Positions 4,037-20,507 of a stretch of 64,000 nt of DNA are shown piece by piece. Source of the DNA: an uncultured Poribacteria bacterium (lineage in GTDB: Bacteria; Poribacteria; WGA-4E; WGA-3G); assembly GCA_951812525.1 (NCBI GenBank), contig OX638316.1, positions 1,624,506 through 1,688,505 on the forward strand. Reading direction: 5' to 3'. The first letter of the stretch is position 1, and each line of letters opens with the position of its first letter. The notes beneath the pieces are model-generated. The model was not told where the DNA came from. It saw only the letters and a program-made list of their open reading frames with translations, and made no database searches. The position numbers were made by a program, and so were the translations under genes.

Positions 4037-4993
4037 ATGGCACGCTACACAACCCTTTCATCATCAGAGCTCGTACACATTGTGGCGCAGTACCCCATCG
4101 GGATGCCATTGAAACTTGAAGAGATTTTCGGCGGATTTGGCAACAGCAACTTCAAATTGATAACTACAGATGGTGAGTTTCTGCTGAAAATTTGCGATGA
4201 GAAAGACCTCACAGAACTCGAAATGCAGATTTCACTGTTGCAGCATCTCTATAAATACGAGTATCCAACAGTGTATCCAGTTCTAACGAAAGATCAGAAA
4301 CCTCTCACACACGAGCCGGTCGGCAGCGTAATGCTCTATCCTTTCCTGAAAGGGGAGCAACCACAGTCTTCACCAACTACCTTGGCGCAACTCGGTGAGG
4401 CGTTGGCAAAACTGCACCGCATTCCACCAATCACCGGACTTCCCTGCTTCGCCATGGGCATCTCACAAATGCTCCCTTTTTTCAAAGAGATTCAAGACAC
4501 ACGATTTGCAGGGCATCCGTTTGTTGAATCGCTGAAATCGCAATTGGAATCGATGGAACCACAACTCAATGCATCCCTTCCAGTCGGGCTTCTACACGGA
4601 GACCTTTTTTTGGACAACACACTCTTTGATGGAGATCAGTTGGTAGCGATTCTTGACTTTGAGGAAGGATGTTATGATACGCTACTAATTGATGTCGGAA
4701 TGACACTCATTGGGTGTTGTTACTCACCACAGCACGAACTGAATCTTAAGGCTGCGCGTCGGTTTTTAGAGGCTTACAATGCAGTGCGTCCCTTGACTGA
4801 AGACGAATGGGAACATCTGGATTGTTTTGTTCATTATGCTGCCCTCTCTATAGCGTTCTGGCGGTTCAGGCAGTTTAACATCCGTCGACCAGATACACGT
4901 CGCGCCGATACGTATCTGGAGATGATAACTCGTAGCGAGCAATGGACAATCGCTAATAGAGACAAACCTATCAAGGCAGAAATATGTCTTTAG
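4037..4993 (+). CDS. APH-family phosphotransferase (homoserine kinase type II-like)
   Basis: This 318-residue protein has an aminoglycoside phosphotransferase/choline kinase fold. The catalytic 'LLHGDLFLDNTLFDG' loop and the metal-binding 'ILDFEEG' motif are both present, as is an N-terminal nucleotide-binding region ('GGFGNSNFKLITTDGEFLLKI' area). Length and motifs fit ThrB2-like homoserine kinases, but the family also phosphorylates other small alcohols, and no threonine genes are nearby. It overlaps the next gene by 10 bases, so it is probably translated with the ABC-F ATPase. Confidence 0.75.
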   Translation: MARYTTLSSSELVHIVAQYPIGMPLKLEEIFGGFGNSNFKLITTDGEFLLKICDEKDLTELEMQISLLQHLYKYEYPTVYPVLTKDQKPLTHEPVGSVMLYPFLKGEQPQSSPTTLAQLGEALAKLHRIPPITGLPCFAMGISQMLPFFKEIQDTRFAGHPFVESLKSQLESMEPQLNASLPVGLLHGDLFLDNTLFDGDQLVAILDFEEGCYDTLLIDVGMTLIGCCYSPQHELNLKAARRFLEAYNAVRPLTEDEWEHLDCFVHYAALSIAFWRFRQFNIRRPDTRRADTYLEMITRSEQWTIANRDKPIKAEICL

Positions 4994-6720
4994 TACGATT
5001 AGAACACGTTACCAAATTGTATGATCCAGACCTAATTCTCGACGATATATCGGTCTCAATTGAGCATGGAGACAGAATCGGATTAATTGGTCGTAACGGA
5101 ACTGGAAAAACTACGTTAATTAAAATTATTAACGGTATGCTTGCCAATTTTAAGGGTAAAGTTGTTTCGGCAAGGGGAGTACGCATCGGATATCTCAGCC
5201 AAGAACCCGATCTTGCACGTGACTGTACCTTAAGGCAGGAGATGCTCAAGGTTTTTGAAGAACGTCGCGCACTTGAAGATGAGATGCTCCTGCTGGCAGA
5301 GGAGATGGAGACACACGAATCACCAGATCTCCTCGCACGCTACGCACGGATTCAGGAACAGCATGAACGACTCGGCGGCTACGATTATGAGCATGAGATT
5401 AACCGTATCCTTGGTGGCTTAGGTTTCAACCAATTAGACTTCAATCTCCCAATCGGCGTCCTGAGCGGAGGTCAAAAAAGCCGAGCAACCCTCGCCAAGC
5501 TACTCCTCGAAAAGCCAGATCTACTTCTTTTCGATGAACCAACAAATCACCTCGACATCAACGGTATTGAATGGCTCGAAAATTACCTCAATAACGAATA
5601 CAACGGCGCAGTACTCGTCGTTTCCCACGACCGGTATTTTTTAGACAAGGTTGTCCGAAAAGTTTGGGAACTCGAAGAGCATCAGATAAAAATTTATCGC
5701 GGGAACTACTCCAAGTACATTGAAACCAAAAAAATTGAACAATTAGTCGGGGCACGCGCATTCAAAAAGCAACAGGCTTTTATTGCACACGAGGAAGATT
5801 TCATTCGCCGGAACATCGCAGGACAGCGTACACGAGAGGCACAGGGCAGACGCAAAAAACTGGAACGTTTGGAGAAGTTTGAAAAACCCCAACGTGATGC
5901 GCCTACCTTCAAACTCTCTTTCACACCTGAAACACGCGGTGGAAACGACATTCTCCGATGTCAAAATGTTGGCAAAGCATTCGGCGACAAACTCATCTTC
6001 ACAGACCTAAATTTTGAGGTATACCGCCGCGATATTATCGGAATTATCGGGGCAAACGGCACCGGCAAGACAACGCTATTCCGTATGATTTTAGGCGAAG
6101 AACCCCCAACAGATGGCGAAATATGGGTAGGACCGACACTCAAATTTGGATACTACGCACAAGAATTAGAAGGGCTCAATCCAGATAATGAAGTTATTGA
6201 TGAAATCTGGGAACTCCGTCCACAGCAGACACAAGGTGAAATACGCAGCTTCCTCGGTAAGTTCTTATTCTCTGGTGATGATGTGTTCAAACGGGTTGGA
6301 AGTCTAAGTGGGGGCGAGCAGAGTCGTGTGCTACTCGCAAAGTTACTATTAGCGAACGCCAACGTTTTGCTACTTGATGAACCCACTAACCATCTTGATA
6401 TCCCAGCACGTGAAGCACTTGAGGCAGCATTAGCAGAATATCCCGCAACCCTTTTCATTATTTCTCACGATCGGTACCTCTTGAGTAATCTCGCAACTAA
6501 ATTACTGGTTTTTGATGGTAAACCTGGAGGAACCGCAGATCTCTTTGAAGGCAATTACGCTGAGTACGCTGCACGGCAACAACAAGCACTTCAGGAAGAT
6601 CAGCCACCATCTGAAAGCGTTCAAGAATCACAACCGGTACAATCTTCTCAACCCAAAGGTAAGTCGAAATCCAAGCGCAAGCGGAAGATAAAGGCGCAAC
6701 GTCTGATTGGAAGCAATTAA
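4984..6720 (+). CDS. ABC-F family ATPase (Uup/EttA-like)
   Basis: The 578-residue protein has two ABC ATPase domains in tandem and no membrane segments. Walker A motifs are 'GRNGTGKTT' and 'GANGTGKTT', signature motifs 'LSGGQKSR' and 'LSGGEQSR', and both Walker B strands read 'DEPTNHLD'. The inter-domain linker is rich in Arg and Lys ('RRNIAGQRTREAQGRRKK'), as in ABC-F proteins that act on the ribosomal E site. A basic, low-complexity C-terminal tail follows, also common in the Uup branch. It overlaps the upstream kinase gene by 10 bases. Confidence 0.9.
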   Translation: MSLVRLEHVTKLYDPDLILDDISVSIEHGDRIGLIGRNGTGKTTLIKIINGMLANFKGKVVSARGVRIGYLSQEPDLARDCTLRQEMLKVFEERRALEDEMLLLAEEMETHESPDLLARYARIQEQHERLGGYDYEHEINRILGGLGFNQLDFNLPIGVLSGGQKSRATLAKLLLEKPDLLLFDEPTNHLDINGIEWLENYLNNEYNGAVLVVSHDRYFLDKVVRKVWELEEHQIKIYRGNYSKYIETKKIEQLVGARAFKKQQAFIAHEEDFIRRNIAGQRTREAQGRRKKLERLEKFEKPQRDAPTFKLSFTPETRGGNDILRCQNVGKAFGDKLIFTDLNFEVYRRDIIGIIGANGTGKTTLFRMILGEEPPTDGEIWVGPTLKFGYYAQELEGLNPDNEVIDEIWELRPQQTQGEIRSFLGKFLFSGDDVFKRVGSLSGGEQSRVLLAKLLLANANVLLLDEPTNHLDIPAREALEAALAEYPATLFIISHDRYLLSNLATKLLVFDGKPGGTADLFEGNYAEYAARQQQALQEDQPPSESVQESQPVQSSQPKGKSKSKRKRKIKAQRLIGSN

Positions 6721-10007: not shown

Positions 10008-10580
10008 ATGAAAACCCAAACACAGTATCTCCTACGAAATCTGGTGATAATAATGGCATTGTGTCTACTCTTTATCACCTGCACCAGTGAAAAGCAATTG
10101 GAAGAGCTCGTACAAACACCCGGAGAAGAGACGATAGTAGAAGAACCTGTCCAGCCTGAAGAAGTGGCAGCTCCGCTTCCGGGTCTCCCCGCAGATGTGG
10201 CGGGATACACGCAGTGGTTAAAATTAAATGCTGAGCCTATACCGCCTGCCGGTGGCGGTGATCCACATAACGGCACAAAAAACGTTTATGTTAACCAAGC
10301 ACGAGAAACTATCGCACCCGATGGTGAACAGCAGTTTCCATATCCAAATGGTAGCATTGTTATAAAAGAGGCATCTCGTCCTGGTAAAGACTTTATTGGA
10401 CTCATCGCAATCATGCGGAAAAAAGAGGGCGTGGACCCTGATCATAACGATTGGGAATTCATTGAATACGTCCGAAGCGCGTCCGATGCCGAGTTCAGAG
10501 AAATAGCCAGAGATGGGGTCTGTTGGGGATGCCACGCCCGAGTTGAAGATATCGATTATGTTTTTACAGAACTTGAGTGA
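10008..10580 (+). CDS. Cytochrome P460-like c-type heme lipoprotein
   Basis: The 190-residue protein has a lipoprotein signal peptide (lipobox 'FITC', Cys25), an acidic Pro/Glu-rich linker, and a domain ending in one covalent heme site 'CWGCH' at residues 172-176. The layout 'YTQWLKLN...P', a central beta region with 'VYVNQ' and 'GKDFIGLIAIMRK', and the C-terminal CxxCH match the cytochrome P460 family, which includes hydroxylamine-oxidising enzymes. The P460 Lys cross-link cannot be judged here. The stop overlaps a possible GTG start of the porin-cytochrome gene, so the two are co-transcribed. Confidence 0.8.
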   Translation: MKTQTQYLLRNLVIIMALCLLFITCTSEKQLEELVQTPGEETIVEEPVQPEEVAAPLPGLPADVAGYTQWLKLNAEPIPPAGGGDPHNGTKNVYVNQARETIAPDGEQQFPYPNGSIVIKEASRPGKDFIGLIAIMRKKEGVDPDHNDWEFIEYVRSASDAEFREIARDGVCWGCHARVEDIDYVFTELE

Positions 10581-10597
10581 AAGATAAGGAGGAGCTT

Positions 10598-11818
10598 TTG
10601 AAACCACATTACGATGACGTTGTGAGGTGTTTTGGCAACACCCTTACGAAAGCGGGCACGGTCAAAAGATTATTTCTACTGCTCGCACTCGTAGCCAGTG
10701 TGGCAATGTGTCTCTTTTTGCCTGAAACAGCGGAGGCGCGTCCTGAATTTGCCACTGAGCTTGAGAAGGAGTGTAGTTTCTGCCACATTGACCCGGCTGG
10801 AGGCGGTCCCCGAAATCGCATCGGTGAAATCTTTGAAGAGAACTATTTTGAATTTCCCGAAGATTTCGACATGGAGGCTGTAACCGAAGAAGCAAAAGAG
10901 GTCGTCAAGCAGCTCACAACTTCACTTGATTTGCAAACTGCATTTATCAAAACTACACATGTGAATGAGGACGAGAACGCCATAGCTGGATGCAATTCAT
11001 GCCACTCTTCGATTGACAGGTTTCTTCTCATGCAGGCAGAGGTAACCTTCAACGCACAAGCCTCTGAACACGTTCGGCTTACCCTTTCCAACAACGCTGG
11101 GACAACAATGAATGCATTTGCAACAGTAGATGCTATTCCGAAACATCTTTATGTCAAAATTGGGCAATTCCGGCTCCCGTTCGCTATCAAACAGAAAGAC
11201 CACAATATTCTCGTCCGACAGGGCTATGGACTCGGTTCTAACAAGCGGGATGTCGGCATTGAACTCGGCGGTAGCGCAGGGAAACTTTTTTATAATGCAG
11301 CTTTCTTTAACGCCGACAACGCAGCAGCAAAAGGCGGGCTCGGCACAATCGGTGCCCAACTCGGACCGATTCGAGCGGGCTTCTCTGGTATGTTTGAAAA
11401 TCCGGGCGAAGACTGGGAACGCCTCATCGGAGTGTTTCTCACAGCCTCCTACGCCGGACTGAGTCTTGAAGGCGAATTCAATTGTGGAAACATCGGAGAG
11501 GTAGCCTCCTTCTCACCCGATGCCGTTGACTCAAAAGGTTACTATATCGGCGCAAAATACCGACTATTTCCTCAACTCACAATCGCCGGTCGATACGGTT
11601 TGTTTGATCCCGATAGGACAGTTAAGGGCGATGCAAGCCAGCGCGTGACACTCACTGCTCAATACAATTTTATGGAAAATGGAGCAATCTCCCTATTTTA
11701 TTGGGGAAACTTGGCTAATGCTGACCGCGCCGCCGATAATGTCATCGGTGATAAAGGCACATTGAGGCAACTCCAAGGTACCGATCAGATTATTTTGATG
11801 TCCCGTTTCTGGTTTTAA
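10598..11818 (+). CDS. Di-heme cytochrome c fused to outer-membrane beta-barrel
   Basis: A signal peptide (residues about 22-47, ending 'ETAEA') is followed by two c-heme sites: 'CSFCH' at about 59-63 and 'CNSCH' at about 132-136. From about residue 140 the sequence turns into alternating amphipathic strands typical of a porin (phosphate-selective porin-like), ending in the terminal aromatic 'MSRFWF' that the BAM complex recognises. Heme domain plus barrel in one chain suggests electron transfer across or at the outer membrane. AGGAGG lies five bases before a TTG at 10598, which I prefer. A GTG at 10577 overlaps the upstream stop and is the alternative. Confidence 0.75.
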   Translation: MKPHYDDVVRCFGNTLTKAGTVKRLFLLLALVASVAMCLFLPETAEARPEFATELEKECSFCHIDPAGGGPRNRIGEIFEENYFEFPEDFDMEAVTEEAKEVVKQLTTSLDLQTAFIKTTHVNEDENAIAGCNSCHSSIDRFLLMQAEVTFNAQASEHVRLTLSNNAGTTMNAFATVDAIPKHLYVKIGQFRLPFAIKQKDHNILVRQGYGLGSNKRDVGIELGGSAGKLFYNAAFFNADNAAAKGGLGTIGAQLGPIRAGFSGMFENPGEDWERLIGVFLTASYAGLSLEGEFNCGNIGEVASFSPDAVDSKGYYIGAKYRLFPQLTIAGRYGLFDPDRTVKGDASQRVTLTAQYNFMENGAISLFYWGNLANADRAADNVIGDKGTLRQLQGTDQIILMSRFWF

Positions 11819-12282
11819 AGATTGTGTGAATCAACATCAATTGGCAAAAGGCAGGATTTATTGGACACCAGTTCTGCCCTGTGTTTAATACTGTGCAATT
11901 TTTGTAAGGACGGATCGTTGCATCCGTCCTTATGTGTTTATATTTACACATAATGTCACCTAAAGACACCTTATTCCTTTCCAACTAATACTAACAGGAT
12001 GTGGAATCCCATCAGGACTTGATTATTCTGCCTTAAATGTCTAAGGGAAAAACGCAACGCAATTGGCATAGAAATTGCTTATCTTCTATACGCGTATCTT
12101 CTGTTTCCTTGTACTCGTTAAGTTTTTAATGATTTGCAACTGCTTTGATAGCGGCATTGGAAATCGGGAACCGACATTCACAATAGGAATAGTGGTCAGC
12201 GGATCGCTCTACAACGGTTCCTTAAATCGATCTGAAAAGAAACCTGTAAAGACAGATCCTTTAGAGCGAAGGGTACTTTATC
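11819..12282. other. Intergenic region, no gene supported
   Basis: This 464-base gap holds the hairpin at 11906-11931 and nothing else I can support. A 72-codon open frame at 12075-12293 overlaps the next gene, has no ribosome binding site and looks like chance. The alpha-2-macroglobulin promoter is presumably in the 3' half. Confidence 0.5.
11906..11931 (+). terminator. Hairpin terminator after porin-cytochrome gene
   Basis: A perfect 10-bp stem (AAGGACGGAT / ATCCGTCCTT) with a 6-base loop lies 88 bases after the porin-cytochrome stop and is followed by a T-rich stretch. It probably ends the cytochrome transcript. Confidence 0.65.
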
Positions 12283-15200
12283 ATGGTAGTTAACCTTTCC
12301 AAAAACTTTTTGATCGGTGTGATTGGGCTGATGGCACTAATCCTTGTTGCCTGTATTTTCTACATTGTACAGGATAACATAGGTGCGCGAACACGGTACA
12401 GCGTCAAGACCTTCACGCCGCAGGGAGAAGTACCACAATGGGTTGATTTTTCAATTACGTTTTCCGAGGCGATTATTGATAAGTCGCGCGTCGGGACTGA
12501 AGTCCCAGCCGAAGCATTTCGGTTTACGCCAGCTGTTCAAGGGACTGCACGCTGGATCGCACGCGATAGAATCGGATTTTTCTTAGACGCTCCTTTAGCA
12601 CCCGCCGCACAGTATACTATACAACTTACACCCGATCTTAACCCATCTGAGACATTTTTACTAACGGGACAAAAAGAGTTCAAATTTGCTACCGAGCCTT
12701 TCACAGTCGAGCAAACACGCATGGAATTTACCACCAATGATGCGCGTGAAGATGCAACAGGTTTCGGTACAATAGCTTTCAACTATCCTGTAACTACCGC
12801 TGATTTAAAGGCGCACCTCTCTATTGAATTGGATGACGGAACAGAAATACCCTATCAGATTGAAACCGGTGCCCCCACCGCACGAACGGTGAGGTTTGAA
12901 ACTAAACGGATAAAGCGCGGGAGCGCAGACCGAGAAATAAAAGTTAAGATTGAAAAGGGTTTCAAATGCATAGGCGGACAAATCGGTCTCGAAAAAGCAA
13001 ATATTACACCCGTTATACTCCGTGGTAGAGGGACGCTCGGTGTAACATATTCGGATGTTTGGGAAAGTGATGGCACCCCCTATATTTCAGTCAGTTTTAG
13101 CGCACCTGTACTCAGCGATACCGTTGAACCCTATCTGGAACTTACACCAGCAGTAGAATATCAAGTCATAGCCGACTATCGGAACATAGAGATCCACGGT
13201 AATTTTAAGCGGCGCACTACCTATACACTAAAAATTCGACGCGGTTTGACAGCACGAAACGATGCCGTCTTGAAGCAAGACTATATGACCAGGCTCACGA
13301 TTCCAGATATTCGACCGCAACTCCGATTCCTCGGGGACGGTTTCTTCCTCGCCAGAAAAGGACAATTGAACCTCGGACTCGCAACGATTAACGTTGAACG
13401 CGTGGAACTTAATATCGAAAAAGTTTTTGCAAACAATCTTATCTATGTCTCAAAATTGGAGAGATGGAGCCGCTGGAGTCAGAACTTAGGTAAGTCTATC
13501 CATACAGAGACGCTTGAGGTACCAGCCCAATTGAACCAAGAAGTAACGGTACCGATCTCCTTGGAGGGCTATCTTTCAGACGAACATGTGGGTATCTTCA
13601 AGGTTGTGGCACGCAACGCACGGCGGGGGTGGGATAGCGCACACCAATGGGTACTCATCACAGATTTGGGAATCAGTGCTAAGCGTGCTGGCGATAGGCT
13701 TTATGTTTGGGTGAAATCTCTCGCTACTGGTGCAGCAGTCCCAACAGCGCGCGTGAAACTCATCAGCGACAATAATCAGACACTCCTCAGTGGCACAACC
13801 AACTGGGCAGGATTCATCGAGTTTAGGGATGTCACGGAAAAGACCGAAGACTTCACGCCGTTTATGATTACCGTCGCGAAACATGACGATCTCGCTTTCA
13901 TTCAATTAGATCGGCACGAAATCGCAACCGCCGATTTCGACATCGCAGGACCTGCCTATTTGGAAAAAGGCTATGAAGCTTTTCTCTACACAGGTAGGGG
14001 GGTCTATCGACCTGGTGAAACTGTCCAACTCGCTGGTGTCGTCCGCGCATCGAAACAGGGAACACCAGAACCGCTACCTACCCGCATTGAGGTGATCGCA
14101 CCGAATGGCAGGATCCTACGAGAATTAAGACAGCACACAACAAAAACTGGAATCTGCGAAGTGCAAATTTCGATCCCTGATTATGCGCAAACAGGCAACT
14201 ATATCGCCAAGATGCTAATTGCCGATAAAGTCGTTGGGAGAGCTTATTTTCAGGTTGAAGAATTCATGCCTGACCGGATGAAGGTCGCTATCACTACAGA
14301 CAAATCTATCTACAGACTCGGAGACAAGCTTGATATTCAAGTGGATGCTGTTAATCTGTTCGGACCCCCAGCTGTAGGACGGAAGGTTCAGGCTTCATGC
14401 GAATTGAAAGCGGTCTCCCTCGTGGACTCCGACAGTCATAGTACTTCTCCAGCGGATACCGAGGCAACAGCGTGGCGTTCCTTCGTCTTCGGAAACACCG
14501 GATCGAAATTTGCTAAACAGTTTGAGAGCCAACGAATTGAATTGGGAGAAGCCAAAACCGATCCAGCGGGTAAGGCACACTATCAATTCACACTTCCGGC
14601 AACCCTGAAAGCACCATCTCTGTTAAATGGTATTCTCACAGTTACCGTCAGTGAAATTGGAGGCAGAGCTGTCACGGCTTCACATGGAGTCGTTATCCAC
14701 CCATATTCGCATTACGCTGGACTTCGACGCACAAATACTGGGGAAGCGAAAATTAACCAACCCATTCGCATCGACTATGTAGCAGTTGATGATACGATGA
14801 CTGTTGCTCCCGGGCGAGCTTTACGACTAAGCCTCCACAAAGTCCATTGGAATACAATCCTGCGGCAGAATACAGCCGGGCGTTACGAGTACGTTTCCGA
14901 ACCACAGATGACTGAGGTGGAAACGCAGATGTTAACTTCAACAGAGACAGCGCAAACCGTGACGCTAACCCCTTCAGATTACGGTGAGTATCGCGTCCGA
15001 CTTGAGGATCTCGAAGCAACGGCAACAGCAGAAATCGGATTTTACGTTAACGGTTGGGGAAACACCGCCGTGTCTATGGAGCATCCTACCCGCTTAGATT
15101 TGACGCTCAATAAACCCACCTATCGTCCCGGTGAAACAGCAAAACTGTCCATTAAGGCTCCGTTTCCAGGTACACTCCTCTTCACTGTTGAGCGAGAAAA

Positions 15201-17931
15201 AGTGCTGAGGTACCGCACGATCGTGATGAAAGAGAATACTGCAACTTTGTCGATTCCGATACGATCCAGTTATAGACCGAACGTCTATCTCTCTGCAACA
15301 CTGATTCGCGCTATTCCTGCCGATACCGTATCAGTAGGCGACCGTCAACCCCTACCAGCACGAGCGTTTGGTGTAATTCCGTTGAAACTCGATGCAGCTC
15401 GCAGGAATCTCTCCGTAAATATGTTTCTCTCACAAACGGATGAAGCCGGTGTATCGGCGGAGATTCCGCTTTCCAGGGACGAAAGGAATATGGAGGATGG
15501 AAAGGACGCTGAGATTACAGTCCGTTCAAACAGCGATGTGAACATTGCATTTCAGGTAAAAGGCACGCGCTCGTGGCAAAAGTATGAGGTCTGTATCGCA
15601 GCTGTGGACGAAGGAATCCTCGCGCTAACCGATTTCCAGACACCTAATCCACACGATTATTTCTATCGGCAACGCGGATTAAAAACACGCACTTTTGACC
15701 TGTATAGCGGGATTTTGCCTGAAATCGCTAATGTTACTGATAACTCCAGGACCGGGGGCGACGGGGTACTGCAAGCAGCACGAAGGAAACGGATTAATAC
15801 CGGCAGCATCAGACGCGTAAAACCCGTCTCGCTTTGGTCTGGATTCGTGAAAACCGATGGAAGAGGACGGGGCACTGTTCAATTTAAGATTCCGCAATTC
15901 AATGGAAAATTACGGTTGATGGCTGTTGCCTTCGCCGGAGCAAATTACGGTGCTGCGGAAGCATACTTGACCGTCCGTGAACCTATTGTCTTAACACCGA
16001 CATTCCCCCGATTTTTGGCAGGTGGTGATAAACTCCGGGTCCCTGTCACGCTTTTTAACGGTACAGGTGAGGATGGAGAATTTACCGTCAAATTGCAAGC
16101 GGTAGGTGATCTGCAGCTACTTTCGGCAAGTCCTACGAATATATCTGGAATGCCGCCTCAAGATGGTTTAGGGACACCTCCACAGTCCCCATTACATGAA
16201 CTCAGCGTAGATAAAAGCGTTGAAGCCGGGACAGAGGAACAAGTCTTTTTTGACATTCGCGTTCAGGATGCGATAGGAGATGTCAGTTTTAATCTGTCTG
16301 CGCACGGTAATACCGAGACAACACAGATGGACGTCCAGCTTCCACTCCGCTCTACCGCTCCACCAATCACAAAAACAGGGCATGGCGTAGTGCGCGCCGG
16401 TAAACCCGTTGATTTCATTTTCCCCGCTGATTTGATACCAGATGCGTCCGAATTCAGTCTCACGCTATCGCCGTTTCCAAATATCGCTTTTGCCGATAGC
16501 CTTCGTTATCTTGTCCGTTATCCCCATGGATGTTTGGAGCAAACCACGAGCAGAGTCTTTCCGCTACTCTATTTCAGCGATCTGGCGCGAAGCGTTGAAC
16601 CGATGCTTGCAGATGATGATTTAGTGGATTACTATATTACATCAGGCATCATTAAACTAGAAAGCATGCTGACATCAAGAAATCAGTTTGCCTACTGGCC
16701 CGGCGGGACTTACATCAATCCGTGGAGTAGTATCTACGCATCCCATTTCCTCGTTGAAGCGAGAAAAGCAGGCTATGAGGTGGCAGACCGCGTTTACGAT
16801 GCAATGCTGGACGGTTTGAGGGAACAGGCAAAATTCTCGCCTGGGAGGGAAAGCCAAGATAGTCCTAAAGAGATAAAGACGAATATCGCACTTGCGACCT
16901 ATGCCTCTTATGTCTTAGCCGCTGCTGGACAGCCCGATCGTGGAACGATGAACTACCTCAAGAATAGAGGTTTAAGCGGACTCAGCGATTATAGCCACTT
17001 CCAACTCGCTGGGGCATTTGCCCTTAGTGGTGAATTGGAGACCGCACTCTCGATGCTACCCGTGTCAGTTTCACTGAGTGTTAATGGTAAGGATAATGAA
17101 CAGTGGGAGACAGGTGGCACCCTTAATTCTCCGATTCGAGCACAAGCGATCATGTTGGATATGCTTGCCGAAGTCAACGAAAATCATCCATCAATCCCGA
17201 TGCTTGTTAAGAATCTGAGAGAGGCAGCATCCGACGGAAACCGATGGAGGACAACCCAGGATAACGCTTTTGCTTTCCTTGCACTCGGCAAGATTATGAA
17301 AAAGCAGATGGATAGGAACTACAACGGCACCCTCAAGCTCAATGGTCAACACTTCGCTGACTTCGATGCAACACAAGTGCAGTACACTGATGACGCGTGG
17401 GACGGTGCCCGCATACAACTTTCCGTCAAAGGCGAGGGAAGCTGCTACTATTACTGGAGTGCATTCGGCATTCAACGCGGCTCATTTGTTGAGGAATACG
17501 AGCGCGAGTTACAAGTACGCCGCCGATACTTCAACAAAGATGGCGAAGAACTCACACGACAGTTTGTACATGGAGACTTAATCGTCGCAGAGATAACCGT
17601 CAAAGCACTCACTGCTAATTTGGAGAACGTTGTTGTTGTAGATATGTTGCCAACCGGTTTTGAGATTGAGAACCCGCGATTGGAGTCTCGAGCGGGCATT
17701 CCGTGGTTGAAGGCACAGGACTTCAAACCCGACTACCTTGACATTCGCGATGACCGACTCATTTTCTTCGGCACGTTCCCGCGCCAGCGCGAACGTAAAT
17801 TCTACTACGCACTACGGGCAGTCACACAAGGCGAATTTACCTTACCACCCATCGCCGCCGAAGCAATGTACGATGTAACAAAATCTACTGTAACGGGTAG
17901 CACACGCATTGAAGTGGTTACAGAGCAATGA
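12283..17931 (+). CDS. yfhM: Bacterial alpha-2-macroglobulin family protein
   Basis: The 1882-residue protein is a bacterial alpha-2-macroglobulin, a periplasmic protease trap that works with PBP1C. An N-terminal hydrophobic anchor contains 'LVAC' (Cys24), which may be a lipobox or simply a transmembrane anchor. Multiple MG-type beta domains follow, with 'TGRGVYRPGETVQLAGVVR' typical of the MG2/MG3 region. The thioester motif C-L-E-Q is intact at about residue 1417, inside 'YPHGCLEQTTSR', so the active-thioester form is expected. The length is slightly above that of E. coli YfhM. Its last four bases overlap the pbpC frame as annotated. Confidence 0.93.
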   Translation: MVVNLSKNFLIGVIGLMALILVACIFYIVQDNIGARTRYSVKTFTPQGEVPQWVDFSITFSEAIIDKSRVGTEVPAEAFRFTPAVQGTARWIARDRIGFFLDAPLAPAAQYTIQLTPDLNPSETFLLTGQKEFKFATEPFTVEQTRMEFTTNDAREDATGFGTIAFNYPVTTADLKAHLSIELDDGTEIPYQIETGAPTARTVRFETKRIKRGSADREIKVKIEKGFKCIGGQIGLEKANITPVILRGRGTLGVTYSDVWESDGTPYISVSFSAPVLSDTVEPYLELTPAVEYQVIADYRNIEIHGNFKRRTTYTLKIRRGLTARNDAVLKQDYMTRLTIPDIRPQLRFLGDGFFLARKGQLNLGLATINVERVELNIEKVFANNLIYVSKLERWSRWSQNLGKSIHTETLEVPAQLNQEVTVPISLEGYLSDEHVGIFKVVARNARRGWDSAHQWVLITDLGISAKRAGDRLYVWVKSLATGAAVPTARVKLISDNNQTLLSGTTNWAGFIEFRDVTEKTEDFTPFMITVAKHDDLAFIQLDRHEIATADFDIAGPAYLEKGYEAFLYTGRGVYRPGETVQLAGVVRASKQGTPEPLPTRIEVIAPNGRILRELRQHTTKTGICEVQISIPDYAQTGNYIAKMLIADKVVGRAYFQVEEFMPDRMKVAITTDKSIYRLGDKLDIQVDAVNLFGPPAVGRKVQASCELKAVSLVDSDSHSTSPADTEATAWRSFVFGNTGSKFAKQFESQRIELGEAKTDPAGKAHYQFTLPATLKAPSLLNGILTVTVSEIGGRAVTASHGVVIHPYSHYAGLRRTNTGEAKINQPIRIDYVAVDDTMTVAPGRALRLSLHKVHWNTILRQNTAGRYEYVSEPQMTEVETQMLTSTETAQTVTLTPSDYGEYRVRLEDLEATATAEIGFYVNGWGNTAVSMEHPTRLDLTLNKPTYRPGETAKLSIKAPFPGTLLFTVEREKVLRYRTIVMKENTATLSIPIRSSYRPNVYLSATLIRAIPADTVSVGDRQPLPARAFGVIPLKLDAARRNLSVNMFLSQTDEAGVSAEIPLSRDERNMEDGKDAEITVRSNSDVNIAFQVKGTRSWQKYEVCIAAVDEGILALTDFQTPNPHDYFYRQRGLKTRTFDLYSGILPEIANVTDNSRTGGDGVLQAARRKRINTGSIRRVKPVSLWSGFVKTDGRGRGTVQFKIPQFNGKLRLMAVAFAGANYGAAEAYLTVREPIVLTPTFPRFLAGGDKLRVPVTLFNGTGEDGEFTVKLQAVGDLQLLSASPTNISGMPPQDGLGTPPQSPLHELSVDKSVEAGTEEQVFFDIRVQDAIGDVSFNLSAHGNTETTQMDVQLPLRSTAPPITKTGHGVVRAGKPVDFIFPADLIPDASEFSLTLSPFPNIAFADSLRYLVRYPHGCLEQTTSRVFPLLYFSDLARSVEPMLADDDLVDYYITSGIIKLESMLTSRNQFAYWPGGTYINPWSSIYASHFLVEARKAGYEVADRVYDAMLDGLREQAKFSPGRESQDSPKEIKTNIALATYASYVLAAAGQPDRGTMNYLKNRGLSGLSDYSHFQLAGAFALSGELETALSMLPVSVSLSVNGKDNEQWETGGTLNSPIRAQAIMLDMLAEVNENHPSIPMLVKNLREAASDGNRWRTTQDNAFAFLALGKIMKKQMDRNYNGTLKLNGQHFADFDATQVQYTDDAWDGARIQLSVKGEGSCYYYWSAFGIQRGSFVEEYERELQVRRRYFNKDGEELTRQFVHGDLIVAEITVKALTANLENVVVVDMLPTGFEIENPRLESRAGIPWLKAQDFKPDYLDIRDDRLIFFGTFPRQRERKFYYALRAVTQGEFTLPPIAAEAMYDVTKSTVTGSTRIEVVTEQ

Positions 17932-20507
17932 GAAAAATCAAAATAGTGATCGGCTACTGGTTGTCAGCTTTCAGTAAAAGGTTGAGTGCTTCTTTTCTGA
18001 TTGCCCATTGCCGACTGCTGATGGTTTCCAGTATCAGAAAACTATTGTGGTTGCTACTACCGTTCTCTATCGTTGTGCTCTTTGTTACTGCGAACTGGTG
18101 TTTCCCCCTGCCCAAAGCACGTCTCCATCTGCCAGCGTCCCCTATCGTCTTGGATAGAAACGGAGAATGGCTCCGCGCATTTTTAGCTGCTGACGGCATG
18201 TGGCGGATGCCCGGAGTTGTGACAGACAGTTCTCAAGATTCGCCCTATGTAAATGTAACACACGAGAATGCCAAAAAGAGTGTCTCGCCATTGTTACACC
18301 AGGCGATGCTAACGTCAGAGGACAGGTGGTTTTACTATCACTGGGGCATTAACCCAGTATCCATCGCAACTGCCTTTTATGACAACCTCACAGCGGGCAA
18401 GGTAGTACGCGGCGGTTCAACAATTACCATGCAGCTCGCACGACTGATGGAACCCAAAGAGCGGAACGTCCCAAACAAACTTTATGAAATGTTCCGTGCA
18501 CTCCAACTTGAGCTTACTTATTCCAAATCTGAAATTTTAACCTTTTACTTCAATATGCTTCCTTACGGCGGAAACATCGTCGGTACAGCAGCGGCATCGC
18601 GGTTTTACTTCAACAAACCCCAGCATTTGATTAGTCTCGGTGAAGCAGCACTCCTCGCCGCGATTCCAAACTCCCCTGAACGTCTACGTCCAGACAGGTT
18701 CCCAGAAAATGCGAGAAAGGCGCGAGATAAGGTGCTGAACCGACTTCTCTTACGTCAGCAGATTTCCAAACAACAGTGGCGGGAAGCATTGCAAGAACCG
18801 ATCCCAACAAAACGCTACCCTCTCCCTTTCAAAGCACCGCATCTTGCGCGCATGCTGGTCAGAGGAAAAAGACAGGCCGCCGAACCGACAACAAGTAGCA
18901 GAATATACACAACGATAGACGCGAAAGTCCAAGAGACAGCGCTGCGTATCCTTCGAGAGTATCTCGATACTTCACTCGCAAGCGTTGTCCGCCATCGCTT
19001 GCCAAGCACAGGGGCTGTCGTCGTTATGGACACGCAAAGCCGGCAGGTCTTAGCAATGGTGGGTTCCCACGACTTTTTCGACCGCCAGGCATCAGGACAG
19101 ATAAACGGCACACTTGCCCCCCGCTCTCCTGGCTCTGCATTAAAACCTTTCGTCTACGCGCTCGCAATAGAGCAAGGCTTGGTTACACCGGAGACACTCT
19201 TATTCGATGTCCCTGTCACCTATGCTGAATATGAACCGGTTAACTACGACGGAAAATACAGCGGCTACGTTACCACGCGTCAGGCACTTGCACGCTCTCT
19301 CAATGTGCCAGCCGTCAATCTTAATGCGCGTCTGGAAGACTATACACTGCATGCTTTTCTCAAACAGGCGCGGATCTCGACGCTGGCATCTGCGAAAAAG
19401 TATGGGCTCTCTATGGTTCTGGGTGGATGTGAAGTGAATTTGCTTGAGCTAACAACGCTTTACGCTGGGTTGGCGAATATGGGAGAATTCGCGGCTTATC
19501 AATTAACACTCCCCCAACCTATCAATAAACGAAATCTTCAGGATACTGTGCCTGCAGACTTCGTAGAGCGGAAGCGCACCCCAAAACGTCTATTCCGGCA
19601 GGAGACCAGTTTCATCATAACTGAGATGCTCACGACTTCGCAACTCCCCACCAACACCGTTAAAAATCCTGAAGCCTTTGAAAGCACCATGAATCTACCG
19701 AAAATTGCTTGGAAAACCGGGACCTCCTATGGGCACAGAGATGCGTGGTGTATCGGATACTCACCCAAGTTAACAATTGGTGTGTGGCTGGGAAACTTTG
19801 ATGGGAAGGGTTTGTCAATGATGAGCGGTACGGATGCAGCGACCCCTATTTTATTTGCGCTCTTTACCGCGCTAACAGGACAAGATACACATCGCTGGTT
19901 CACAAAACCGGAACAACTGAAAACACGACAGGTATGTACGCTCAGTGGTGCTCCTGTTTCTCCGCACTGCCCTACTCGTAAAAGCGATGTATATATCCCG
20001 GGTATCTCGCCTGTCGCCACCTGTACAATGCACAAACGCGTTTATATTGATGAGACAACGGGCTACAGTCTCTGCTCTCACTGTCGGAATCTTCCGAAGG
20101 CAGCGTCGCAAAAGGGTGATAAGGCTATTATTTTTGAGGAATGGACCGCCGAAGCAGCAACGTGGTTGGCGAAAAATGGATTCGCTGTGCCTGTTCTACC
20201 AGAGCATAATCCTTTGTGCAACGGCGCAATCGCAGGCACTGCCCCCATCATCTTGTCCCCTACAAAAGACACCGTCTATTATATTAGGGCTGGGGTGCCG
20301 CTGGAAAACCAAAAAATCCGCCTCTCTGCCTCTGCTTCTAATCGGACACAGGAACTGTTCTGGTTTCTGGATGGTGAGTTGATTTTCAAAGGCAACGCAG
20401 GACGGCAATACTGGCTTACGCCAGTCAAAGGGAAACACCTGCTAACCTGTGTGGATGCGGAGGGGCGCTCAGTAAGCCTTCCGCTCCGCATTTCAACGAT
20501 ACCCTAG
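17928..20507 (+). CDS. pbpC: Penicillin-binding protein 1C
   Basis: A bifunctional peptidoglycan synthase: GT51 transglycosylase ('EDRWFYYHWGINP', 'GGSTITMQLARL'), then transpeptidase with S-x-x-K in 'SPGSALKPF', 'SLNVPAVN' and K-T-G in 'WKTGTSYGHRDAW', then a biPBP_C C-terminal domain with several cysteines. Pairing with alpha-2-macroglobulin is the known yfhM-pbpC arrangement. The first 31 codons (17928-18020) read through a dispersed noncoding repeat, so the native start may be ATG 18021, just before the hydrophobic anchor 'LLWLLLPFSIVVLFV'. Neither start has a strong ribosome binding site. Confidence 0.92.
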   Translation: MRKIKIVIGYWLSAFSKRLSASFLIAHCRLLMVSSIRKLLWLLLPFSIVVLFVTANWCFPLPKARLHLPASPIVLDRNGEWLRAFLAADGMWRMPGVVTDSSQDSPYVNVTHENAKKSVSPLLHQAMLTSEDRWFYYHWGINPVSIATAFYDNLTAGKVVRGGSTITMQLARLMEPKERNVPNKLYEMFRALQLELTYSKSEILTFYFNMLPYGGNIVGTAAASRFYFNKPQHLISLGEAALLAAIPNSPERLRPDRFPENARKARDKVLNRLLLRQQISKQQWREALQEPIPTKRYPLPFKAPHLARMLVRGKRQAAEPTTSSRIYTTIDAKVQETALRILREYLDTSLASVVRHRLPSTGAVVVMDTQSRQVLAMVGSHDFFDRQASGQINGTLAPRSPGSALKPFVYALAIEQGLVTPETLLFDVPVTYAEYEPVNYDGKYSGYVTTRQALARSLNVPAVNLNARLEDYTLHAFLKQARISTLASAKKYGLSMVLGGCEVNLLELTTLYAGLANMGEFAAYQLTLPQPINKRNLQDTVPADFVERKRTPKRLFRQETSFIITEMLTTSQLPTNTVKNPEAFESTMNLPKIAWKTGTSYGHRDAWCIGYSPKLTIGVWLGNFDGKGLSMMSGTDAATPILFALFTALTGQDTHRWFTKPEQLKTRQVCTLSGAPVSPHCPTRKSDVYIPGISPVATCTMHKRVYIDETTGYSLCSHCRNLPKAASQKGDKAIIFEEWTAEAATWLAKNGFAVPVLPEHNPLCNGAIAGTAPIILSPTKDTVYYIRAGVPLENQKIRLSASASNRTQELFWFLDGELIFKGNAGRQYWLTPVKGKHLLTCVDAEGRSVSLPLRISTIP
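17948..18022 (+). repeat. Dispersed short repeat at the 5' end of pbpC
   Basis: The pattern GGCTACTGGTTGTCAG, CTTTCAGTAAAAGG, then TTCTTTTCTGATTGCC recurs in looser form at 62063-62125, in reverse at 28785-28860 and as a short reverse piece at 1932-1955. It lies at gene boundaries and encodes nothing conserved. I infer a small noncoding repeat family. The identity between copies is only partial by eye. Confidence 0.4.

Follow-up and report, generated by a model that had tools for sequence, protein, structure and literature searches.

Does a single polypeptide of Poribacteria combine an outer-membrane barrel with two c-type hemes, and could it, together with the heme lipoprotein encoded just upstream, carry electrons across the outer membrane? 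The locus that raises this question lies in a window of 64,000 nucleotides, the whole stretch of DNA analyzed, within a 5.06 Mb genome whose named relatives are Candidatus Poribacteria, largely sponge-associated. Our preferred reading, to which we assign a probability of roughly one half, takes the porin for a diheme version of the Cyc2-type proteins, a superfamily of fused cytochrome-porins, that works as a two-heme outer-membrane electron relay with a lipoprotein cytochrome as its partner. The locus is a compact two-gene unit on the plus strand, in which both reading frames are open and the P460 lipoprotein gene precedes the porin-like gene:

10008..10580, plus strand: P460-family lipoprotein gene, 190 aa (open frame; Pfam PF16694, E 3.6e-11, above the cut-off)
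10587..10592, plus strand: Shine-Dalgarno-like AGGAGG preceding TTG 10598
10598..11818, plus strand: diheme cytochrome-porin gene (the longest frame starts at GTG 10577)
11903..11934, plus strand: terminator-like hairpin 3' of the two-gene unit, 13 pairs

Of the two candidate starts of the barrel gene, TTG 10598 is more probable than the listed GTG, because the AGGAGG element lies five bases upstream of the former. The hairpin pattern occurs at a frequency close to the shuffle mean and is therefore weak evidence for a terminator. The unit is flanked by ftsY on the other strand and by an alpha-2-macroglobulin/PBP1C pair; the latter, at 12283-20507 of the window, consists of a bacterial alpha-2-macroglobulin followed, with a four-base overlap, by a class A penicillin-binding protein of the PBP1C type. 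No multiheme gene adjoins the porin, and the two genes of the unit are the only plausible CxxCH genes in the window. Cytochrome c assembly genes (PF01578) are found in the genome.

The N-terminal part of the porin chain holds the following elements:

10598..10738, plus strand: predicted signal peptide, cut between AEA and RPEF (from sequence; homologues have the same x-A-x-A/PEF junction)
10772..10786, plus strand: heme 1 site CSFCH in an N-terminal Cyc2-like module, AxPxFA..C..CH..P.GGG.RN..G (from conservation and a Cyc2-type profile match)
10991..11005, plus strand: heme 2 site CNSCH, kept in 63 of the 64 sequences of the Poribacteria set

CSFCH lies 11 residues past the predicted cut, which places heme 1 outside the leader, and CNSCH follows 73 residues after CSFCH. 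Heme 1 is kept in all 64 relatives and heme 2 in all but one, so the CxxCH sites are not chance occurrences; heme 1 is likewise invariant in a set of 70 sequences with other phyla included.

We modeled the porin with AlphaFold2 using 34 relatives. Mean pLDDT is 52, reaching 70-85 across much of the C-terminal half and falling below 60 in the heme domain, strand 1 and loop 1. The model nevertheless matches 16-strand porins (Foldseek, E to 5e-9), and VIA-align aligns residues 48-58 to 359 with nearly the full length of OmpF, PorB, OprO and OprP (Z 16-17). Sequence searches returned less: the barrel has a weak Porin_4 match under the curated cut-off and no match among solved-structure sequences, profile search included, NCBIfam yielded sub-threshold matches only, and plasmid tblastn yielded none. 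Porin_O_P (Pfam PF07396) has no match in the genome, though the model superposes on OprP and OprO. The chain ends in FWF, with a terminal F, and this ending is conserved in relatives. The barrel is laid out as follows:

10916..10954, plus strand: predicted barrel strand 1 (AlphaFold2 strand at residues 60-72, low local confidence; amphipathic alternation; aligned with the first residues of PorB and OmpF)
10955..11017, plus strand: loop 1, predicted to be extracellular, between strands 1 and 2 and bearing heme 2, a position occupied by heme only in Poribacteria
11018..11815, plus strand: barrel strands 2-16, ending in FWF (from the model, structural alignment and conserved terminus)

In the model, strand 1 spans residues 60-72 and strand 2 residues 94-109, with the heme 2 site at 85-89. 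Since the structural alignment begins at residue 48-58, heme 2 would follow strand 1 and sit in loop 1; strand 1 also has support from an amphipathicity profile. Numbering the strands backwards from the C-terminal end makes the short turns periplasmic and the long loops external, and by this pattern loop 1 would be outside. Heme 1 alone thus probably precedes the barrel, while heme 2 probably occupies loop 1, normally extracellular, a placement we infer from a model that is weakest exactly there. Should strand 1 lie outside the barrel instead, residues 1-93 would form a diheme plug, both hemes would be periplasmic, and the protein would dock periplasmic cytochromes or gate the pore. Low pLDDT over residues 1-98 agrees with such an arrangement, as does the linear order as the earlier note had read it. 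However, a barrel stripped of strand 1 would have an odd number of strands, the VIA-align superposition of 16-strand porins has their first residues matched from residues 52-58 of the model onward, and strand 1 is amphipathic and present also in monoheme relatives from other phyla; we consider a wholly periplasmic pair of hemes doubtful, if still a serious contender.

Much of what the earlier note had described is thereby borne out. Two c-type heme sites and a barrel share one chain, by sequence, conservation in 64 relatives and model; the C-terminal part, ending in F, is predicted as a barrel of the 16-strand porin kind; and the hemes lie outside the predicted leader. Its placement of both CxxCH motifs between signal peptide and barrel holds for heme 1 but not for heme 2, which strand count, loop pattern and structural alignment put in loop 1. 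The suggestion that the heme domain is a plug or an electron entry point is plausible for heme 1.

Resemblance to a known class of electron-transfer porins extends over the whole chain. Aligned by hhalign with Cyc2-type proteins, a set gathered by motif (AxPxFAR plus PxL), seeded by one adjoining a monoheme member and including no named Cyc2, the Poribacteria family gives probabilities of 98.7-99.8 over the whole length. The N-terminal module is significant alone (Prob 96, E 1.6e-9 for the heme 1 module), as is the barrel (E 1.8e-10), and a control of module against barrel was negative. This homology bears on a reading in which the barrel is mainly a channel for solute uptake or export, gated by hemes that sense redox state or a small gas, and the P460 lipoprotein is a ligand-binding accessory. 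The barrel does resemble general and anion porins, and P460 and cytochrome c'-beta folds bind NO and CO (PMC11928373), but the Cyc2-type homology covers the heme module besides the barrel, and a Cyc2-type gene with cytochromes adjoins a monoheme member. We regard a gated solute pore as unlikely.

The diheme porin is a near-universal single-copy gene of sponge-associated Poribacteria. Of 85 Poribacteria genomes, 78 match the family profile, as do 55 of the 56 good ones; some of these matches are partial or heme-1-only. The query protein has a match in 80 of 146 relatives. Conservation of the two hemes together with phylum-wide matches shows a genuine feature under strong conservation. Many other phyla, as well as family f5 within this class, have homologues that carry heme 1 alone; the N-terminal motif of the monoheme relatives is approximately A-L-P-R-F-S-x3-G-x2-C-x2-C-H-x-N-P-x-G-G-G-x-R-N. 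All homologues examined outside Poribacteria lack the loop 1 heme site. One gain of heme 2, placed in the common ancestor of families f1, f2, f3, f4 and f8, and one loss, in the long-branched L088, suffice for the tree; a frameshifted copy from f7 also has heme 2. The member that lost heme 2 (L088:5020-6102) belongs to the Poribacteria order. A distant member, L124, has two CxxCH motifs, both in the N-terminal module, and represents a separate route to two hemes. In another genome, G238, a Cyc2-type gene adjoins a GGGxRN-type monoheme cytochrome-porin gene (L145:2624-4117 and 4648-5763), with a diheme cytochrome nearby.

The same distribution touches on the nature of the second site. Four residues were considered as a sixth ligand of heme 2 (H74, H136, M98 and H155 in alignment A1 numbering), and none tracks heme 2; the alignment of relatives contains no conserved sixth ligand specific to it. 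Since monoheme relatives too have M98 and H155 without exception, these two may serve heme 1 or the fold. The loop 1 CxxCH could accordingly be read as a disulfide or metal site, consistent with the lack of an evident sixth ligand and with the motif being missing from all examined homologues outside Poribacteria. Yet 63 of 64 sequences retain the two cysteines along with the histidine, and the motif transits the periplasm, where cytochrome c assembly, whose genes are present, attaches heme to CxxCH, which leaves a site of this kind quite improbable.

By Pfam, the upstream lipoprotein belongs to the P460 family (44 bits against a cut-off of 27), and it contains a CxxCH motif. Pairing of the porin with a P460-like lipoprotein, as proposed before, thus stands, the gene lying directly upstream. 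Its own model (pLDDT 47) is too poor for use, and its residues are read from alignments:

10080..10082, plus strand: lipobox cysteine C25; the lipobox (FTAC, LSAC, FTSC and the like) is kept in homologues
10266..10268, plus strand: His87, on the distal 'capping' position (Phe32 in cytochrome c'-beta) or one residue away from it; invariant in 21 sequences
10365..10367, plus strand: Lys120, in the place of the Lys that cross-links heme in P460 (Phe61 in c'-beta); invariant (alignment; residue table in PMC11928373)
10407..10409, plus strand: Ala134, where active P460s have the catalytic Glu or Asp; invariant in the alignment
10521..10535, plus strand: CWGCH, the lipoprotein's own heme site; its two Cys and its His are invariant

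In E. coli, the Lol rule is that a lipoprotein with no Asp at +2 favours the outer membrane. Homologues of the P460 lipoprotein have no Asp at +2 after the lipobox Cys, and the kept lipobox together with this residue favours an outer-membrane location under that rule. The cross-link position is held by Lys70 in Ne, Lys78 in Mc and Phe61 in McCP-beta, and the catalytic carboxylate position by Glu96 and Asp102, by Ala131 in inactive NsP460 and by Gly82 (PMC11928373). Lys120 has a Gly at -5, as in McP460. Because Ala134 replaces the catalytic carboxylate, oxidation of NH2OH by the known mechanism is not expected of this protein, and the hydroxylamine chemistry that the earlier note had drawn from the P460 partner is not supported. 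Least credible of all is a surface unit in which the P460 protein oxidizes hydroxylamine or NO and hands the electrons to the diheme porin for transport inward: the invariant lysine at the cross-link position and the conserved pairing speak for it, but the invariant Ala, as in inactive NsP460, and the Poribacteria porins without an adjacent P460 speak against it. A second P460 protein of the same genome (L102:4054-5208; G000:C1 about 539053-540207) is a lipoprotein with two P460 domains and Asp/Met-rich stretches between them; it adjoins a small lipoprotein (L102:5524-5892), made up mostly of DDGMM repeats, which may bind metal.

Of the 54 Poribacteria loci with enough sequence, a count that includes one contig twice, 46 have a P460 gene directly upstream of the porin in the same orientation; one of the eight exceptions is the duplicate, which leaves about 53 loci. 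The arrangement also appears beside monoheme porins: in G341 a P460 gene precedes the porin, and in G148 the porin is followed by a fusion lipoprotein of P460 and PSCyt1 and by a tandem P460 lipoprotein. Next to the porin of G134, G091, G186 and G341 lie small lipoprotein cytochromes, PSCyt1-like or of other types. In several lineages that are unrelated, the porin thus has P460 or another lipoprotein cytochrome as a neighbour. Because P460 is not adjacent to the porin in most other phyla examined, the association is recurrent but not general. At L143:3808-4614, 25 bases after a monoheme porin, lies a lipoprotein with a weak P460 domain fused to PSCyt1 and a Cys at the position of the cross-link lysine.

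Sequence or model thus gives the porin a signal peptide, a Cyc2-like monoheme module and a 16-strand barrel with a c-heme site in loop 1; from these we infer heme attachment, topology, electron path and partnership. In the relay we prefer, the heme 1 module would be a plug at the periplasmic mouth of the barrel, and loop 1 would hold heme 2 on or in the outer mouth. Electrons would hop between the two hemes, inward or outward, and so pass the outer membrane with no need of a separate multiheme cytochrome, and the P460-fold heme lipoprotein, anchored in the same membrane, would be the redox partner on one side. A dissolved metal, an organic redox compound or an NO-type ligand are candidate donors or acceptors outside. 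More tentatively, and at somewhat less than even odds, the protein is a minimal wire: one 16-strand chain with a periplasmic-side heme and an extracellular-loop heme, which evolved once in Poribacteria from a monoheme cytochrome-porin and is coupled to a His-capped P460 lipoprotein. Electron tunnelling has a usual limit of about 14 Å; the heme-to-heme distance, in a protein whose model contains no heme, may lie above it. The description of Poribacteria as carbohydrate degraders in a study of sponge symbionts (PMC8941161) counts against the electron-relay reading.

If the relay reading is true, one CxxCH added to a loop can turn a monoheme Cyc2-type protein, in which the single heme leaves the electron path through the pore unsettled, into a two-heme conduit. 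A near-universal surface redox activity would also be implied for a phylum described as carbohydrate-degrading sponge symbionts, and the monoheme GGGxRN family with its lipoprotein cytochrome partners would constitute a large, little-noticed set of possible outer-membrane electron-transfer systems. We know of no biochemistry for any family member. In open-licence literature our searches turned up neither a diheme fused porin nor a P460-porin pair, nor any account of extracellular electron transfer by Poribacteria.

Among known systems, the partner shares with cytochrome P460 and cytochrome c'-beta the Pfam P460 fold, a CxxCH motif and the position of the cross-link lysine, but differs in being a lipoprotein encoded by a porin-linked gene, with Ala for the carboxylate and His near the capping position. 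MtrCAB, MtoAB and PioAB likewise carry hemes through a barrel across the outer membrane, but with a 26-strand barrel and a separate decaheme protein (PMC8406198), whereas the Poribacteria protein has 16 strands and two hemes in one chain. The GGGxRN-type monoheme cytochrome-porins of many phyla (L079, L081, L084, L106-L115) are of the same family (profile E to 1e-126) and have the same heme 1 motif, but they lack the loop 1 heme and, in place of P460, often have a PSCyt1-type lipoprotein as partner. Known porin-cytochrome conduits are not always separate chains, contrary to what had been stated for this locus: Cyc2 is a fused cytochrome-porin, with the motif AXPXFAR[QK][TY] before CXXCH and PXL after it (PMC8406198). 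It is an iron oxidase, the barrel through which iron bacteria move electrons. Cyc2 and the Poribacteria porin have in common a signal peptide, an N-terminal CxxCH module, AxPxFA in the same register and a 16-strand porin in one chain; the predicted barrel follows the cytochrome module as in published Cyc2, with low confidence near strand 1. Unlike Cyc2, which is defined by a single N-terminal CxxCH, the Poribacteria protein has two conserved CxxCH motifs, the second heme being placed in loop 1, and a P460 lipoprotein as neighbour. Its ARPEFATEL fits AXPXFAR[Q/K][T/Y] at the first six positions and differs at the last three; the PXL that soon follows CxxCH in Cyc2 is missing, the sequence there being CSFCHIDPAGGGPRN, and GGGxRN stands in place of the R[QK][TY] and PxL parts of the motif. 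Since module and barrel are each significant alone and the cross control is negative, the Poribacteria porin is, as judged from sequence, a member of the Cyc2 superfamily, but not a Cyc2 by the published criteria.
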